Part shown: piece by piece, positions 2,732 through 64,000 of the stretch
Position numbering within the stretch: position 1 is the first letter of the stretch
Layout of the letters: each line of letters opens with the position of its first letter
Source: Siphonodentalium dalli
Taxonomy: Eukaryota > Mollusca > Scaphopoda > Gadilida > Siphonodentaliidae
Reading direction: 5' to 3'
Assembly (NCBI GenBank): GCA_032622095.1
Contig: CP136064.1
Coordinates: 181,880,011-181,944,010, forward strand
Length of the DNA stretch: 64,000 nucleotides
Program-made: the position numbers and the translations under genes
The notes under the pieces: generated by a model
Told to the model about the DNA's origin: nothing
What the model saw: the letters and a program-made list of their open reading frames with translations, nothing else
Databases searched by the model: none

Positions 2732-5142
2732 GATACTGGCAAAGGATGATGTCACCCTTCCATGACCACAATTGCAATTTTACGCGATTCAAACTTCAAA
2801 ACGGGATTACATCATGGACTTACTGTTCAATGGAAATATGTGATATGGCAAAGGGTGATATCACCCTTCCATGATCACAATTTTACGCGATTCAAACGTC
2901 AAAACGGGATTACATAATGGATATATTTGTACAATGAATTTATATGTGAAATGGCAAAGGGTGATATCACCCTTCCATGATCACAATTTTACCGATTAAA
3001 ACTTCAAAAACGGGATTACATCATGGATATATTGAACAATGAATTTATATGTGAGATGGCAAAGGATGATATCACCCTTACATGATCACAATTTTACGCG
3101 ATTCTAGCCTCAAAACCGGATTACATCATGGATATATTGTACAATGAATTTATATGTGAAATGGCAAAGGGTGATATCACCCTTCCATGATCACAATTTT
3201 ACCGATTAAAACTTAAAAACGGGATTACATCATGGATATATTGAACAATGAATTTATATGTGAAATGGCAAAGGGTGATATCACCCTTCCATGATCACAA
3301 TTTTACCGATTATAACTTCAAAACGGGATTACATAATAGATATATTGAACAATGAATTTATATGTGAAATGGCAAAGGATGATATCACCCTTCCATGATC
3401 ACAATTTTATGCGATTCTAGCCTCAAAACCGGATTACATCATGGATATATTGTACAATGAATTTATATGTAAAATGGCAAAGGGTGATATCACCCTTCCA
3501 TGATCACAATTTTACCGATTAAAACTTTAAAACGGGATTACATCATGGATATATTGAACAATGAATTTATATGTGAAATGGCAAAGGGTGATATCACCCT
3601 TCCATGATCACAATTTTACCGATTAAAACTTAAAAAACGGGATTACATCATGGATATATTGAACAATGAATTTATATGTGAAATGGCAAAGGGTGATATC
3701 ACCCTTCCATTATCACAATTTTACGGAATATAACTTCAAAACGGGATTACATAATGGATATATTGAACAATGAATTTATATGTGAAATGGCAAAGGATGA
3801 TATCACCCTTCCATGATCACAATTTTACGCAATTCTAACTTCAAAACCGGATTACATCATGCATATATTGTACAATGAATTTATATGTGAAATGGCAAAG
3901 GGTGATATCACCCTTCCATGATCACAATTTTACCGATTAAAACTTAAAAAACGGGATTACATCATGGATATATTGAACAATGAATTTATATGTGAAATGG
4001 CAAAGGGTTATATCACCCTTCCATTATCACAATTTTACGGAATATAACTTCAAAACGGGATTACATAATGGATATATTGAACAATGAATTTATATGTGAA
4101 ATGGCAAAGGATGATATCACCCTTCCATGATCACAATTTTACGCAATTCTAACTTCAAAACCGGATTACATCATGCATATATTGTACAATGAATTTATAT
4201 GTGAAATGGCAAAGGGTGATATCACCCTTCCATGATCACAATTTTACCGATTAAAACTTAAAAACGGGATTACATCATGGATATATTGAATAATGAATTT
4301 ATATGTGAAATGGCAAAGGGTGATATCACCCTTCCATGATCACAATTTTACCGATTATAACTTCAAAACGGGATTACATAATGGATATATTGAACAATGA
4401 ATTTATATGTGAAATGGCAAAGGATGATATCACCCTTCCATGATCACAATTTTATGCGATTCTAGCTTCAAAACCGGATTACATCATGGATATATTGTAC
4501 AATGAATTTATATATGAAATGGAAAAGGGTGATATCACCCTTCCATGATCACAATTTTACCGATTAAAACTTAAAAACGGGATTACATCATGGATATATT
4601 GAACAACGAATTTATATGTGACATGGCAAAGGGTGATATCACCCTTCCATGATCACAATTTTACCGATTATAACTTCAAAACGGGATTACATAATGGATA
4701 TATTGAACAATGAATTGATATGTGAAATGGCAAAGGGTGATATCACCCTTCCATGATCACAATTTTACCGATTATAATTTCAAAACGGGATTACGTAATC
4801 AATATATTGTACAGTGAATTTATATGTGAAATGGCAAAGGGTGATATCACCCTTCCAAGATCACAATTTTACGCGATCGAAACTTCAAAACGGGATTACA
4901 TAATTGATATATTGTACAATGAATTGATATGTGAAATGGCAAAGGGTGATATCACCCTTCCATGATCACAATTTTACTCAATTCAAACTTCAAAACGGGA
5001 TTAGATTATGGACTTACTGTACAATGGATTTATATGTGATATGGCAAAGGGTGATATCACCCTTCCATGACCACAATTTTACGCGATTCTAACTTCAAGA
5101 CGGGAATACATCATGGATATATTGTACAGTACATATATATGT
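2732..5142 (+). repeat. HOR unit U1, 23 monomers, 2,411 bp
   Basis: M4 carries CCCTTACATGATCAC, shared with U3, U10, U21, U22, U24, U25, U28 and U35. The unit equals the 2,097-bp layout of U22 and U24 plus one 314-bp, 3-monomer duplication. Tail monomers are of the type with TTACGTAATC and TTAGATTATGG. Confidence 0.85.
3593..4220 (+). repeat. 3-monomer tandem duplication in U1 (period 314 bp)
   Basis: The trio with boxes CTTAAAAAACGGG, ACGGAATATAACTTC and ACGCAATTCTAACTTC followed by GCATATATTG appears twice in succession (CTTAAAAAACGG at 3,629 and 3,943). U22 and U24 have the trio once, so the duplication is derived. Confidence 0.8.
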
Positions 5143-7448
5143 GATACTGGCAAAGGATGATGTCACCCTTCCATGACCACAATTGCAATTTTACGCGATT
5201 CAAACTTCAAAACGGGATTACATCATGGACTTACTGTTCAGTGGAAATATGTGATATGGCAAAGGGTGATATCACCCTTCCATGATCACAATTTTACGCG
5301 ATTCAAACGTCAAAACGGGATTACATAATGGATATATTTGTACAATGAATTTATATGTGAAATGGCAAAGGGTGATATCACCCTTCCATGATCACAATTT
5401 TACCGATTAAAACTTCAAAAACGGGATTACATCATGGATATATTGAACAATGAATTTATATTTGAGATGGCAAAGGATGATATCACCCTTCCATGATCAC
5501 AATTTTACGCGATTCTAGCGTCAAAACCGGATTATATCATGCATATATTGTACAATAAATTTATATGTGAAATGGCAAAGGGTGATATCACCCTTCCATG
5601 ATCACAATTTTACCGATTAAAACTTAAAAACGGGATTACATCATGGATATATTGAACAATGAATTTATATGTGAAATGGCAAAGGGTGATATCACCCTTC
5701 CATGATCACAATTTTACCGATTATAACTTCAAAACGGGATTACATAATGGATATATTGAACAATGAATTTATATGTGAAATGGCAAAGGATGATATCACC
5801 CTTCCATGATCACAATTTTATGCGATTCTAGCCTCAAAACCGGATTACATCATGGATATATTGTACAATGAATTTATATGTGAAATGGCAAAGGGTGATA
5901 TCACCCTTCCATGATCACAATTTTTCCGATTAAAACTTAAAAACGGGATTACATCATGGATATATTGAACAATGAATTTATATGTGAAATGGCAAAGGGT
6001 GATATTATACTTCCATTATCACAATTTTACCGAATATAACTTCAAAACGGGATTACATAATGGATATATTGAACAATGAATTTATATGTGAAATGGCAAA
6101 GGATGATATCACCCTTCCATGATCACAATTTTACGCGATTCAAACGTCAAAACGGGATTACATAATGGATATATTATACAATGAATTTATATGTGAAATG
6201 GCAAAGGGTGATATCACCCTTCCATGATCACAATTTTACCGATTAAAACTTAAAAAACGGGATTACATCATGGAAATATTGAACAATGAATTTATATGTG
6301 AAATGGCAAAGGGTGATATCACCCTTCCATTATCACAATTTTACCGAATATAACTTCAAAACGGGATTACATAATGGATATATTGAACAATGAATTTATA
6401 TGTGAAATGGCAAAGGATGATATCACCCTTCCATGATCACAATTTTACGCAATTCTAACTTCAAAACCGGATTACATCATGCATATATTGTACAATGAAT
6501 TTATATGTGAAATGGCAAGGGGTGATATCACCCTTCCATGATCACAATTTTACCGATTAAAACTTAAAAACGGGATTACATCATGGATATATTGAACAAT
6601 GAATTTATATGTGAAATGGCAAAGGGTGATATCACCCTTCCATGATCACAATTTTACCGATTATAACTTCAAAACGGGAATACATAATGGATATATTGAA
6701 CAATGAATTTATATGTGAAATGGCAAAGGATGATATCACCCTTCCATGATCACAATTTTATGCGATTCTAGCTTCAATACCGGATTACATCATGGATATA
6801 TTGTACAATGAATTTATATGTGAAATGGCAAAGGGTGATATCACCCTTCCATGATCACAATTTTACCGATTAAAACTTAAAAACGGGATTACATCATGGA
6901 TATATTGAACAACGAATTTATATGTGAAATGGCAAAGGGTGATATCACCCTTCCATGATCACAATTTTACCGATTATAACTACAAAACGGGATTACATAA
7001 TGGATATATTGAACAATGAATTGATATGTGAAATGGCAAAGGGTGATATCACCCTTCCATGATCACAATTTTACCGATTATAATTTCAAAACGGGATTAC
7101 ATAATCAATATATTGTACAGTGAATTTATATGTGAAATGGCAAAGGGTGATATCACCCTTCCAAGATTACAATTTTACGTGATTGAAACTTTAAAACGGG
7201 ATTACATAATTGATATATTGTACAATGAATTTATATGTGAAATGGCAAAGGGTGATATCACCCTTCCATGATCACAATTTTACTCGATTCAAACTTCAAA
7301 ACGGGATTAGATCATGGACTTACTGTACAATGGATTTATATGTGATATGGCAAAGGGTGATATCACCCTTCCATGACCACAATTTTACGCGATTCTAACT
7401 TCAAGACGGAATTACATCATGGATATATTGTACAGTAAATATATATGT
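5143..7448 (+). repeat. HOR unit U2, 22 monomers, 2,306 bp
   Basis: Direct counterpart of U9, which is 7 bp shorter because of one deletion near 17,210. Diagnostic variants are TTTGAGATGG (about 5,460), GATATTATACTTCC (about 6,002), CTTCAATACC and the single-base change CCAAGATTACAATT (about 7,163), all repeated in U9. Confidence 0.87.
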
Positions 7449-15638: not shown

Positions 15639-16266
15639 GTGAAATGGCAAAGGATGATATCACCCTTCCATGATCACAATTTTATGCGATTCTAGCTTCA
15701 AAACCGGATTACATCATGGATATATTGTACAATGAATTTATATGTGAAATGGAAAAGGGTGATATCACCCTTCCATGATCACAATTTTACCGATTAAAAC
15801 TTAAAAACGGGATTACATCATGGATATATTGAACAACGAATTTATATGTGACATGGCAAAGGGTGATTTCACCCTTCCATGATCACAATTTTACCGATTA
15901 TAACTTCAAAACGGGATTACATAATGGATATATTGAACAATGAATTGATATGTGAAATGGCAAAGGGTGATATCACCCTTCCATGATCACAATTTTACTG
16001 ATTATAATTTCAAAACGGGATTACGTAATCAATATATTGTACAGTGAATTTATATGTGAAATGGCAAAGGGTGATATCACCCTTCCAAGATCACAATTTT
16101 ACGCGATCGAAACTTCAAAACGGGATTACATAATTGATATATTGTACAATGAATTTATATGTGAAATGGCAAAGGGTGATATCACCCTTCCATGATCACA
16201 ATTTTACTCGATTCAAACTTCAAAACGGGATTAGATTATGTACTTACTGTACAATGGATTTATATG
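15639..16266 (+). repeat. Inverted duplication, left (source) arm, 628 bp
   Basis: Six monomers (M9 to part of M15) in normal orientation. They carry private variants, GGGTGATTTCACCC (about 15,865) and TTATGTACTTACTG (about 16,248), that reappear in the reversed arm. This shows that the reversed arm was copied from this one rather than from another unit. Confidence 0.9.
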
Positions 16267-16314
16267 TGATATGGCAAAGGGTGATATCACCCTTCCATGA
16301 CCACAATTTTACGC
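16267..16314 (+). repeat. 48-bp spacer of the inverted duplication
   Basis: Ordinary M15 sequence, including one complete 18-bp palindrome and CCATGACCAC, lies between the arms and ends at ACGC. The midpoint of the two arms falls at 16,290.5. Confidence 0.9.
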
Positions 16315-16942
16315 CATATAAATCCATTGTACAGTAAGTACATAATCTAATCCCGTTTTGAAGTTTGAATCGAGTAAAATTGTGATCATGGAAGGGTGAT
16401 ATCACCCTTTGCCATTTCACATATAAATTCATTGTACAATATATCAATTATGTAATCCCGTTTTGAAGTTTCGATCGCGTAAAATTGTGATCTTGGAAGG
16501 GTGATATCACCCTTTGCCATTTCACATATAAATTCACTGTACAATATATTGATTACGTAATCCCGTTTTGAAATTATAATCGGTAAAATTGTGATCATGG
16601 AAGGGTGATATCACCCTTTGCCATTTCACATATCAATTCATTGTTCAATATATCCATTATGTAATCCCGTTTTGAAGTTATAATCGGTAAAATTGTGATC
16701 ATGGAAGGGTGAAATCACCCTTTGCCATGTCACATATAAATTCGTTGTTCAACATATCCATGATGTAATCCCGTTTTTAAGTTTTAATCGGTAAAATTGT
16801 GATCATGGAAGGGTGATATCACCCTTTTCCATTTCACATATAAATTCATTGTACAATATATCCATGATGTAATCCGGTTTTGAAGCTAGAATCGCATAAA
16901 ATTGTGATCATGGAAGGGTGATATCATCCTTTGCCATTTCAC
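16315..16942 (-). repeat. Inverted duplication, right arm, 628 bp
   Basis: This is the reverse complement of 15,639 to 16,266. Reading both arms base by base I find two differences: C for T at the ACTGATTATAAT site, and G for A giving GGATATGTTGAAC. The insertion replaces the 9 bases GATTCTAAC that stand between ACGC and TTCAAGACGGG in all ordinary M15 monomers. The array resumes at once in the forward direction and in register. This is the only reversed sequence in the window. It could give a long hairpin in DNA or in any transcript crossing it. Confidence 0.92.
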
Positions 16943-16991
16943 TTCAAGACGGGAATACATCATGGATATATTGTACAGTACATATATATGT

Positions 16992-19290
16992 GATACTGGC
17001 AAAGGATGATGTCACCCTTCCATGACCACAATTGCAATTTTACGCGATTCAAACTTCAAAACGGGATTACATCATGGACTTACTGTTCAGTGGAAATATG
17101 TGATATGGCAAAGGGTGATATCACCCTTCCATGATCACAATTTTACGCGATTCAAACGTCAAAACGGGATTACATAATGGATATATTTGTACAATGAATT
17201 TATATGTGAAAGGGTGATATCACCCTTCCATGATCACAATTTTACCGATTAAAACTTCAAAAACGGGATTACATCATGGATATATTGAACAATGAATTTA
17301 TATTTGAGATGGCAAAGGATGATATCACCCTTCCATGATCACAATTTTACGCGATTCTAACGTCAAAACCGGATTATATCATGCATATATTGTACAATGA
17401 ATTTATATGTGAAATGGCAAAGGGTGATATCACCCTTCCATGATCACAATTTTACCGATTAAAACTTAAAAACGGGATTACATCATGGATATATTGAACA
17501 ATGAATTTATATGTGAAATGGCAAAGGGTGATATCACCCTTCCATGATCACAATTTTACCGATTATAACTTCAAAACGGGATTACATAATGGATATATTG
17601 AACAATGAATTTATATGTGAAATGGCAAAGGATGATATCACCCTTCCATGATCACAATTTTATGCGATTCTAGCCTCAAAATCGGATTACATCATGGATA
17701 TATTGTACAATGAATTTATATGTGAAATGGCAAAGGGTGATATCACCCTTCCATGATCACAATTTTTCCGATTAAAACTTAAAAACGGGATTACATCATG
17801 GATATATTGAACAATGAATTTATATGTGAAATGGCAAAAGGTGATATTATACTTCCATTATCACAATTTTACCGAATATAACTTCAAAACGGGATTACAT
17901 AATGGATATATTGAACAATGAATTTATATGTGAAATGGCAAAGGATGATATCACCCTTCCATGATCACAATTTTACGCGATTCAAACGTCAAAACGGGAT
18001 TACATAATGGATATATTGTACAATGAATTTATATGTGAAATGGCAAAGGGTGATATCACCCTTCCATGATCACAATTTTACCGATTAAAACTTAAAAAAC
18101 GGGATTACATCATGGATATATTGAACAATGAATTTATATGTGAAATGGCAAAGGGTGATATCACCCTTCCATTATCACAATTTTACCGAATATAACTTCA
18201 AAACGGGATTACATAATGGATATATTGAACAATGAATTTATATGTGAAATGGCAAAGGATGATATCACCCTTCCATGATCACAATTTTACGCAATTCTAA
18301 CTTCAAAACCGGATTACATCATGCATATATTGTACAATGAATTTATATGTGAAATGGCAAGGGGTGATATCACCCTTCCATGATCACAATTTTACCGATT
18401 AAAACTTAAAAACGGGATTACATCATGGATATATTGAACAATGAATTTATATGTGAAATGGCAAAGGGTGATATCACCCTTCCATGATCACAATTTTACC
18501 GATTATAACTTCAAAACGGGAATACATAATGGATATATTGAACAATGAATTTATATGTGAAATGGCAAAGGATGATATCACCCTTCCATGATCACAATTT
18601 TATGCGATTCTAGCTTCAATACCGGATTACATCATGGATATATTGTACAATGAATTTATATGTGAAATGGCAAAGGGTGATATCACCCTTCCATGATCAC
18701 AATTTTACCGATTAAAACTTAAAAACGGGATTACATCATGGATATATTGAACAACGAATTTATATGTGAAATGGCAAAGGGTGATATCACCCTTCCATGA
18801 TCACAATTTTACCGATTATAACTACAAAACGGGATTACATAATGGATATATTGAACAATGAATTGATATGTGAAATGGCAAAGGGTGATATCACCCTTCC
18901 ATGATCACAATTTTACCGATTATAATTTCAAAACGGGATTACATAATCAATATATTGTACAGTGAATTTATATGTGAAATGGCAAAGGGTGATATCACCC
19001 TTCCAAGATTACAATTTTACGTGATTGAAACTTTAAAACGGGATTACATAATTGATATATTGTACAATGAATTTATATGTGAAATGGCAAAGGGTGATAT
19101 CACCCTTCCATGATCACAATTTTACTCGATTCAAACTTCAAAACGGGATTAGATCATGGACTTACTGTACAATGGATTTATATGTGATATGGCAAAGGGT
19201 GATATCACCCTTCCATGACCACAATTTTACGCGATTCTAACTTCAAGACGGAATTACATCATGGATATATTGTACAGTAAATATATATGT
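16992..19290 (+). repeat. HOR unit U9, 22 monomers, 2,299 bp
   Basis: Counterpart of U2. A private 7-bp deletion near 17,210 turns GTGAAATGGCAAAGGG into GTGAAAGGG and explains the whole length difference. CCAAGATTACAATT recurs at about 19,004. Confidence 0.87.
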
Positions 19291-58309: not shown

Positions 58310-59812
58310 GATACTGGCAAAGGATGATGTCACCCTTCCATGACCACAATTGCAATTTTACGCGATTCAAACTTCAAAACGGGATTACATCATGGACTTA
58401 CTGTTCAATGGAAATATGTGAAATGGCAAAGGGTGATATCACCCTTCCATGATCACAATTTTACGCGATTCAAACGTCAAAACGGGATTACATAATGGAT
58501 ATATTTGTACAATGAATTTATATGTGAAATGGCAAAGGGTGATATCACCCTTCCATGATCACAATTTTACAGATTAAAACTTCAAAAACGGGATTACATC
58601 ATGGATATATTGAACAATGAATTTATATGTGAGATGGCAAAGGATGATATTACCCTTCCATGATCACAATTTTACGCGATTCTAACTTCAAAACCGGATT
58701 ATATCATGCATATATTGTACAATGAATTTATATGTGAAATGGCAAGGGGTGATTTCACCCTTCCATGATCACAATTTTACCGATTAAAACTTAAAAACGG
58801 GATTACATCATGGATATATTGAACAACGAATTTATATGTGAAATGGCAAAGGGTGATATCACCCTTCCATGATCACAATTTTACCGATTATAACTTCAAA
58901 ACGGGATTACATAATGGATATATTGAACAATGAATTTATATGTGAAATGGCAAAGGATGATATCACCCTTCCATGATCACAATTTTATGCGATTATAATT
59001 TCAAAACCGGATTACGTAATCAATATATTGTACAGTGAATTTATATGTGAAATGGCAAAGGGTGATATCACCCTTCCATGATCACAATTTTACCGATTAA
59101 AACTTCAAAAACGGGATTACATCATGGATATATTGAACAATGAATTTATATGTGAGATGGCAAACAATGATATTACCCTTCCATGATCACAATTTTACGC
59201 GATTCTAACTTCAAAACCGGATTATATCATGCATATATTGTACAATGAATTTATATGTGAAATGGCAAGGGGTGATATCACCCTTCCATGATCACAATTG
59301 TACCGATTAAAACTTAAAAACGGGATTACATCATGGACATATTGAACAACGAATTTATATGTGAAATGGCAAAGGGTGATATCACCCTTCCATGAACACA
59401 ATTTTTCCGATTATAACTTCAAAACGAGATTACATAATGGATATATTGAACAATGAATTGATATGTGAAATGGCAAAGGGCGATATCACCCTTCCATGAT
59501 CACAATTTTACCGATTATAATTTCAAAACGGGATTACATATTCAATATATTGTACAATGAATTTATATGTGAAATGGCAAAGGGTTATATCACACTTCCA
59601 TGATCACAATTTTACCGATTAAAACTTTAAAACGGGATTACATCATGGATATATTGAACAACGAATTTACTTACTGTATGGACTTACTGTACAATGGATT
59701 GATATGTGATATGGCAAAGGGTGATATCACCCTTCCATGACCACAATTTTACGCGATTCTAACTTCAAGACGGGATTACATCATGGATATATTGTACAGT
59801 AAATATATATGT
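58310..59812 (+). repeat. HOR unit U34, about 14 monomers, 1,503 bp, out-of-register
   Basis: M3, M4 and the following monomer occur twice (about 58,570 and 59,095), joined through the M9/M12 chimera near 58,985. The second M4 has GGCAAACAATGATATTACC. The unit is about 33 bp longer than a whole number of monomers because of the irregular junction near 59,670. Confidence 0.83.
59661..59691 (+). repeat. Irregular (non-register) junction
   Basis: ACGAATTTAC of an M10-like monomer runs into TTACTGTATGG and then CTTACTGTACAATGG of M14. ACTTACTGTA occurs twice 13 bp apart (59,669 and 59,682). Other junctions in the window preserve the 105-bp register; this one does not, which suggests end joining or slippage rather than homologous exchange. 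Confidence 0.8.
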
Positions 59813-62542: not shown

Positions 62543-63540
62543 GATACTGGCAAAGGATGATGTCACCCTTCCATGACCATAATTGCAATTTTACGCGATT
62601 CAAACTTCAAAACAAGATTACATCATGGACTTACTGTTCAATGGAAATATGTGATAGGCAAAGGGTGATATCACCCTTCCATTATCACAATTTTACGCGA
62701 TTAAAACGTCAAAACGGGATTACATAATGGATATATTGTACAATGAATTTATATGTGAAATGGCAAAGGGTGATATCACCCTTCCATGATCACAATTTTA
62801 CCGATTAAAACTTAAAAAACGGGATTACATCATGGATATATTGAACAATGAATTTATATGTGAAATGGCAAAGGGTGATATCAGCCTTCCATGATCACAA
62901 TTTTACCGATTATAACTTCAAAACGGGATTACATAATGGATATATTGAACAATGAATTTATATGTGAAATGGCAAAGGATGATATCACCCTTCCGTGATC
63001 ACAATTTTACTCGATTCTAACTTCAAAACTGGATTACATCATGCATATATTGTACAATGAATTTATATGTGAAATGGCAAAGGGTGATATCACCCTTCCA
63101 TGATCACAATTTTACCGATTAAAACTTAAAAACGGGATTACATCATGGATATATTGAACAATGAATTTATATGTGAAATGGCAAAGGGTGATATCACCCT
63201 TCCATGATCACAATTTTACCGATTATAACTTCAAAACTGGATTACATAATGGATATATTGAACAATGAATTTATATGTGAAATGGCAAAGGATGATATCA
63301 CCCTTCCATGATCACAATTTTACGCGATTCTAGCTTCAAAACCGGATTACATCATGGATATATTGTACAATGAATTTATATGTGAAATGGCAAAGGATGA
63401 TATCACCCTTCCATGATCACAATTTTACGCAATTCTAACTTCAAAACTGGATCACATCATGCATATATTGTACAATGAATTTATATGTGAAATGGCAAAG
63501 GGTGAAATCACACTTCCAACTCCACATTTTACGCGATATA
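62543..63540 (+). repeat. HOR unit U37, right edge of the array, about 9.5 monomers
   Basis: M1 is altered (GACCATAATTGC, AAAACAAGATTAC) and M2 has lost 2 bp (GTGATAGGC). Substitutions rise towards the end (GATATCAGCC, ACTGGATCACATC). In the last monomer the dyad reads GGGTGAAATCACACTTCC, and after TTTTACGCGATATAATAG the sequence no longer matches the consensus closely. Confidence 0.85.
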
Positions 63541-63650
63541 ATAGCCTGTTTAGCAAAAATATTTAATTGTAATGTACGGCCTTTCATTTGTGATCTGGCT
63601 AAGGGTGAAATCACTCTCACAAAACCACATTTCCATGCGATAGAATAACC
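63541..63650 (+). repeat. Strongly diverged monomer outside the main array
   Basis: TTGTGATCTGGC, TAAGGGTGAAATCACT, AAAACCACATTT and ATGCGATAGAATAACC align in order with TATGTGATATGGC, AAAGGGTGATATCACC, ATGACCACAATTT and ACGCGATTCTAAC. Its dyad lies 103 bp after that of the last array monomer, so register and length are kept although much of the linking sequence has changed. It is probably an old array-edge copy. Confidence 0.75.
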
Positions 63651-64000
63651 TTATTCTGACGTGTCTGAATAATAAAAGATTTAAAGTAAATAAGTGATCA
63701 AGGCAAGCTATGTCTAAATTTAATGCGAACATATATGTAATCTTTGTTACAATTTCATGAATGGTGTGGTATTCAGAATAAATTTTGACATGTGTCGATC
63801 ACACTGCGAATTGATAAAAGAATGAATGCATGCATGGCTACATTACTGTCCACAACATTAATCTACCGTTGTAACACCTTAGTTTAGACACAACATGCGA
63901 AAACAAACGTATTTGTATATACATAATATGTCTAAATAGCGAAAATGAATACTTGCCTGTAATGCCCGGAACACGTCAGCACATTAGGGTTGTTTACAGA
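63651..64000. other. Unique AT-rich flank, no gene seen
   Basis: No repeat match, RNA gene, splice-supported exon or coding frame of note is visible. GTGATCAAGGC at 63,694 lies 104 bp after GTGATCTGGC at 63,590 and could be a further decayed monomer, but the rest of that stretch does not align well. The segment is too short to identify the neighbouring locus. Confidence 0.6.

Follow-up and report, generated by a model that had tools for sequence, protein, structure and literature searches.

Within a tandem array of almost uniform orientation, we identified a reversed piece six monomers long, which is a real, well-preserved copying accident of a known mutation type. Its product, its source, the order of its breakpoints and its uniqueness are all observed directly in the window (the whole 64-kb stretch of DNA analysed here). 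Because the source, the sister sites and both junctions of this small, base-resolved inversion are intact, its formation is directly readable. The anatomy is probably best fitted by one local strand switch followed by a return, in the order 3-2-1-4 of the four-point model.

A uniform satellite array with one reversed piece

The window consists of a head-to-tail tandem array of 104/105-bp monomers extending from base 11 to approximately base 63,540, with about 600 forward monomers and uniform orientation except for the one reversed piece. An 18-bp dyad, perfect in its main form AAGGGTGATATCACCCTT, is present once per monomer in the array. Allowing up to five substitutions, we counted 607 dyads in the window, 417 of which match AAGGGTGATATCACCCTT exactly. 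Asymmetric variants are common (AAGGATGATATCACCCTT in 107 and AAGGATGATGTCACCCTT in 36 of the 607), and their partner bases show no compensating change. The window holds a single open reading frame of at least 100 aa, no tRNA and no Rfam family at gathering score, and the array appears to be eukaryote-type satellite DNA. The CENP-B box motif had no match at 0 or 1 mismatch on either strand, and 1 forward and 6 reverse matches at 2 mismatches.

The monomer patterns had no exact match in viral or genome contig collections, and 15639-16314 had no match among plasmids or phages. The open-licence literature yielded no account of the dyad AAGGGTGATATCACCCTT or of a 104/105-bp satellite or monomer, and none of a 104-bp centromeric satellite with a higher-order repeat. 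Across 1-63540, the context of a 9-bp site described below often repeats at 1,568 or 1,575 bp, as obtained by position subtraction, indicating higher-order structure. A single 137-bp dyad spacing at 59580-59717 resembles a forward partial duplication inside a monomer, with no inversion visible by eye. Where the array ends (63500-64000), the last monomers are degenerate and the final ~400 bp do not look satellite-like by eye.

The initial annotation described 15639-16942 as the only reversed segment, and the whole window bears this out. A BLAST search of the 64-kb window with the consensus monomer (E at most 1e-10) returned 601 plus-strand matches and six minus-strand matches, all of the latter within 16320-16942. 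Six of the 607 dyads sit in reversed monomers, all at one place, and the reversed piece has no second copy in the window. Consistent with a local reversal, the AT skew is 0.032 in 16001-18000 versus 0.072-0.099 in the other 31 bins.

With the right arm of the reversed structure masked, 19 words of 16 bases still matched a reverse complement, each of the 19 containing the dyad-core 8-mer, and no 24-base word did so in the window. At shorter lengths the dyad core was absent from 5 of 26 words (14 bases) and from 31 of 50 words (12 bases). The prospect of further inverted copies did not materialize outside the right arm in the window, either by consensus BLAST or as a 16-base reversed word lacking the dyad core, in a scan that shorter pieces, or pieces centred on a dyad, could escape.

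Anatomy of the inverted duplication and its sister sites

The reversed structure and its reference site comprise the following features:

15639-16266, forward strand: left arm; six forward monomers plus 1 bp, the original array sequence and source of the copy
15650-15667, forward strand: dyad of the first left-arm monomer, with one mismatch; departure from the copied strand lies 11 bases beyond it
16267-16314, forward strand: spacer of 48 bp in forward orientation; a perfect 18-bp dyad and a 9-nt tail beyond the predicted hairpin edge
16277-16294, forward strand: spacer dyad AAGGGTGATATCACCCTT, perfect
16314-16315, no strand: junction 1; forward strand left and copied strand entered at the complement of 16266, with 0 bp microhomology
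16315-16942, reverse strand: right arm; inverted copy of the left arm, six minus-strand monomers
16942-16943, no strand: junction 2; return to the forward array with 7-9 bp of GATTCTAAC missing and 2 bp (AC) microhomology
5085-5093, forward strand: GATTCTAAC at the uninterrupted sister site, in the closest forward copy (4409-5758)

The two arms pair without gaps at 626 of 628 positions, which upholds the original description of a 628-bp inverted duplication with a 48-bp spacer. Base pairing stops immediately outside the 628 nt, and the arms form the longest inverted pair in the window. As had also been stated, they differ at two positions only, 15828/16753 and 15999/16582.

An uninterrupted ancestral version had been placed at about 5,065-5,110, and the same flanks do enclose the 9 bp there; intact GATTCTAAC occurs elsewhere too. 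The forward array likewise continues in register after the insertion, as claimed: the left arm, spacer, 9 bp and right flank, when joined, give a 1350-column alignment to 4409-5758 that contains 8 mismatches and a single gap, which reflects a distinct 7-bp deletion after 17208. None of the 12 best homologous copies of ~1.35 kb, selected with a query containing the 9 bp, carries the interruption. The reported replacement of 9 bp proved correct in that GATTCTAAC is missing between 16314 and 16943, and needs correction in its exact size: given the 2-bp ambiguity (AC) at the second junction, the reversed piece measures 626-628 bp and the loss 7-9 bp.

Source of the right arm and relative age

To the initial claim that the arms share private variants, the comparison with other copies adds a clear instance: 16241 T is present in both arms and in 0 of the 21 other full-length copies listed. 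Three further rare variants are common to both arms, namely 15852 C and 15868 T (each in 1 of the 21 other listed copies) and 16108 C (in 3 of the 21). These 21 full-length, ungapped 628-bp copies are those among the matches listed (the best 25 of 1842 pairs), and after the 21st the length falls to 569. The right arm shows 2 differences from the left arm and at least 5 from any other place found in the window. Judged from the rare variants common to both, the right arm is copied from the left arm or its allele.

The two differing positions carry opposite signatures. At 15999 the left arm has T, and the right arm and all 21 listed copies have C; at 15828/16753 the left arm and all 21 listed copies have A, and the right arm has G in the same sense. 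Base comparison at these positions thus assigns one private derived base to each arm. After copying, at least the left arm mutated, and a copying error could explain the private base of the right arm. Four pairs of forward 628-bp segments show zero differences, which suggests that forward homogenisation is as young as, or younger than, the reversed piece.

These private bases bear directly on whether the structure is a sequencing or assembly artefact of the fold-back type, an explanation we consider very improbable. Fold-back reads, defined as reads that double back, the second part aligning to the region of the first on the opposite strand, made up ~0.55-0.6% of nanopore genomic reads and were virtually absent in the PacBio HiFi data examined, according to an excerpt of PMC12870357. 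By our reading of that definition a fold-back turns once, within one molecule, whereas the present structure has two junctions, an in-register return and a loss of 7-9 bp. Moreover, T at 15999 occurs only in the left arm, with the converse at 15828/16753. Together, the private derived base in each arm and the in-register return make a fold-back artefact unlikely, barring base errors.

The arms also bear on the possibility that six monomers exactly, excised from a sister chromatid as a free fragment or small circle, were inserted backwards into a break. Its appeal lies in the integral monomer length, as expected of circles arising by recombination between monomers. However, colinearity of the two arms extends to the last informative bases: at the closest positions where monomers 1 and 7 differ (15630 versus 16257 and 15643 versus 16270), the right arm matches the left arm on both sides. 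A circle would have had to open within ~13 bp of its own closure point, or ~2% of 627, and to land 48 bp from its source. Circle reinsertion was rejected on the colinearity of the arms, and we regard this origin as very improbable.

Breakpoint phase and the predicted dyad hairpin

The interval between the dyads at 15650 and 16277 is 627 bp, equal to six whole monomers, and on the copied strand each breakpoint precedes a dyad start by 11 bases (junction 2 within its 2-bp ambiguity). An integral monomer length within this ambiguity has a chance probability of ~2.9%, a figure for a single event and for a regularity of length and phase looked for after seeing the data. The whole-monomer length of the reversed piece and the common breakpoint phase form a newly recognised regularity, noticed post hoc.

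The palindrome formed by the surroundings of the dyad is imperfect. Folding of 98-nt windows with DNA parameters around 600 dyads, excluding the reversed monomers and the window edge, gave a modal predicted hairpin of 41 nt, its outermost enclosing pair lying at -12/+28 in 337 folds and elsewhere in 263. The first left-arm monomer has a predicted fold of -30/+51 in the forward direction and -11/+29 in reverse. For the uninterrupted sister site (5025-5110), the predicted fold reaches -11.4 kcal/mol (z -2.6), a value matched by 2 of 200 shuffles. Relative to the modal predicted hairpin, the two breakpoints on the copied strand fall 1 nt within one edge, and the forward departure and return lie 9 nt and 17-19 nt, respectively, past the other edge.

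The earlier suggestion that the dyads aided the switch therefore receives modest support from the two copied-strand switch points, which coincide in phase at the edge of the modal predicted hairpin, but not from the departure point beyond the other edge. Because every monomer has a dyad, some dyad is always close to any breakpoint. Across the 607 dyads, an A.C combination occurs at one dyad pair in 156, and none of the nine pairs shows a symmetry-restoring double change. Dyad mutations are thus not repaired to symmetry, which argues that hairpin-driven copying is not pervasive. A broader proposal, that the dyad hairpin is a repeating switch site at whose edge strand switches enter and leave the copied strand, so that reversed pieces consist of whole monomers, is tentative and in our view rather unlikely.

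Private changes next to the event

A 7-bp deletion lies after 17208 (17208-17209), ~266 bp past junction 2; it is private (0 of 12 homologous copies) and its placement is ambiguous by up to 3 bases. The first four bases of the 5′ stem of the predicted dyad hairpin precede it, and it produces the only 99-bp dyad spacing in the window. Within the 1.35-kb homologous block, this deletion constitutes one further private structural change of the event copy. Its origin may lie in the same disturbed synthesis or be independent of it. A mutation shower around the event was not seen: the event copy has 3 private substitutions, versus 0-17 private columns in the 12 other copies, counts that include gaps and in which some copies score 0 because an identical twin is in the set.

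Junctions and mechanism

Junction 1 is blunt (0 bp) and junction 2 has 2 bp (AC) of microhomology. Among 50,000 random forward/reverse joins in the array, 0 bp occurred in 53% and 2 bp in 13%, and the junction microhomology is no greater than random joins give. Microhomology-mediated break-induced replication is recognised by junction microhomology beyond chance.

By a local strand switch and return, rightward DNA synthesis would have reached 16314, just past the spacer dyad, and quit its template. Restarting 48 bases back, at 16266 of the complementary strand, synthesis would have proceeded leftward across six monomers as far as 15639-15641 and then rejoined the original template, 7-9 bases past the departure point. 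The imperfect 41-nt predicted hairpin centred on the monomer dyad may have positioned the switches, and the whole event could have taken place in one step during replication. The 7-bp deletion downstream, in the same predicted hairpin stem, was counted as support for such a switch.

A template switch to the other strand and back had been proposed from the start, and a single local event with in-register return does fit; yet the same product would arise from break repair with fold-back synthesis. The accompanying statement that the switch explains every detail was overstated, with microhomology of 0 and 2 bp as in random joins and a departure 9 nt off the hairpin edge. In the repair alternative, a double-strand break near 16314 would lose 7-9 bp, the resected 3′ end would fold back via the dyad hairpin, extend by ~628 nt, unfold and be end-joined.

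Small losses and blunt or 2-bp junctions are ordinary for end joining. The 7-9 bp loss, the blunt first junction and the 2-bp second junction are consistent with such repair, as is the predicted 41-nt hairpin that adjoins the end. However, the predicted stem is separated from the 3′ end by nine bases that are unpaired to the flank where copying starts, and copying ~628 nt before returning to the same break would amount to a long templated insertion. We treat break repair with fold-back synthesis as a serious rival, though we would assign it a minor share of the probability. The sequence alone does not firmly separate break repair from replication template switching.

As to persistence, inverted Alu repeats with a 12-bp spacer stall replication forks in E. 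coli, as stated in part of a review (PMC7999016). As stalling was reported with that spacer, one of 48 bp, as in the present structure, may be tolerable in a eukaryote.

Comparison with known systems

The four-point template-switch model describes the structure closely. A reverse-complement fragment derives from nearby ancestral sequence (626 of 628 positions, with rare variants in common), and the segments L to 1, 2 to 3 and 4 to R reproduce the product, with breakpoints at 16314, 16266, 15639 and 7-9 bp past the departure. With an inverted match of 628 nt, a one-strand alignment has little scope to account for the product instead. In the portion of PMC7954356 drawn on here, two breakpoint orders make up the majority of great-ape template switches, and 3-2-1-4 is among them. 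Like the short-range mutations in that portion, the present event combines nearby copying of the other strand and return, order 3-2-1-4, an inverted-repeat product and structure-forming sequence near the first switch point (PMC7954356). Unlike them, the copied piece of ~627 bp lies at or above the described range of "tens to hundreds of nucleotides", the setting is a satellite array, and the copied-strand breakpoints fall in one repeat phase (excerpt of PMC7954356).

Small inverted triplications of FEN1/rad27 mutants offer a second comparison. As excerpted from PMC13334657, their inverted fragment measures 20 bp to several kb (median 160), their spacer has a median of 30 bp, and fold-back of a 3′ flap is proposed as their origin. 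Our structure resembles these yeast events in having an inverted length within their range, a short spacer near their median and two switches. It differs, so far as the excerpt describes them, in having two copies, no flanking direct duplication and 0-2 bp at the junctions versus ~6 (PMC13334657). A small inverted triplication (DUP/IN/DUP) was accordingly rejected: there are two copies only, and the right flank best matches 5094 onwards, not the left arm again.

Among the titles listed from the open-licence literature, none reported a base-level event of this kind in a satellite array, which is weak evidence given that coverage. Large, finished orientation changes are already known in satellite arrays, as in the TmSat1/TmSat2 macro-dyads of Tribolium madens, whose basic sequence is ~110 bp (part of PMC13081366). 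Kilobase-scale inverted subarrays tending to symmetry, as in those macro-dyads, are absent from our 64-kb window. As portrayed in that part of PMC13081366, the inverted subarrays of T. madens recur and span several kb, and the subunits at inversion sites are diverged, whereas here one 628-bp reversed piece stands among ~600 forward monomers. Should other events in the same arrays have the hairpin-edge phase, satellite dyads would be linked to strand switching; if this is true, phased inversions could seed arrays with large inverted subarrays, a testable idea on their origin.
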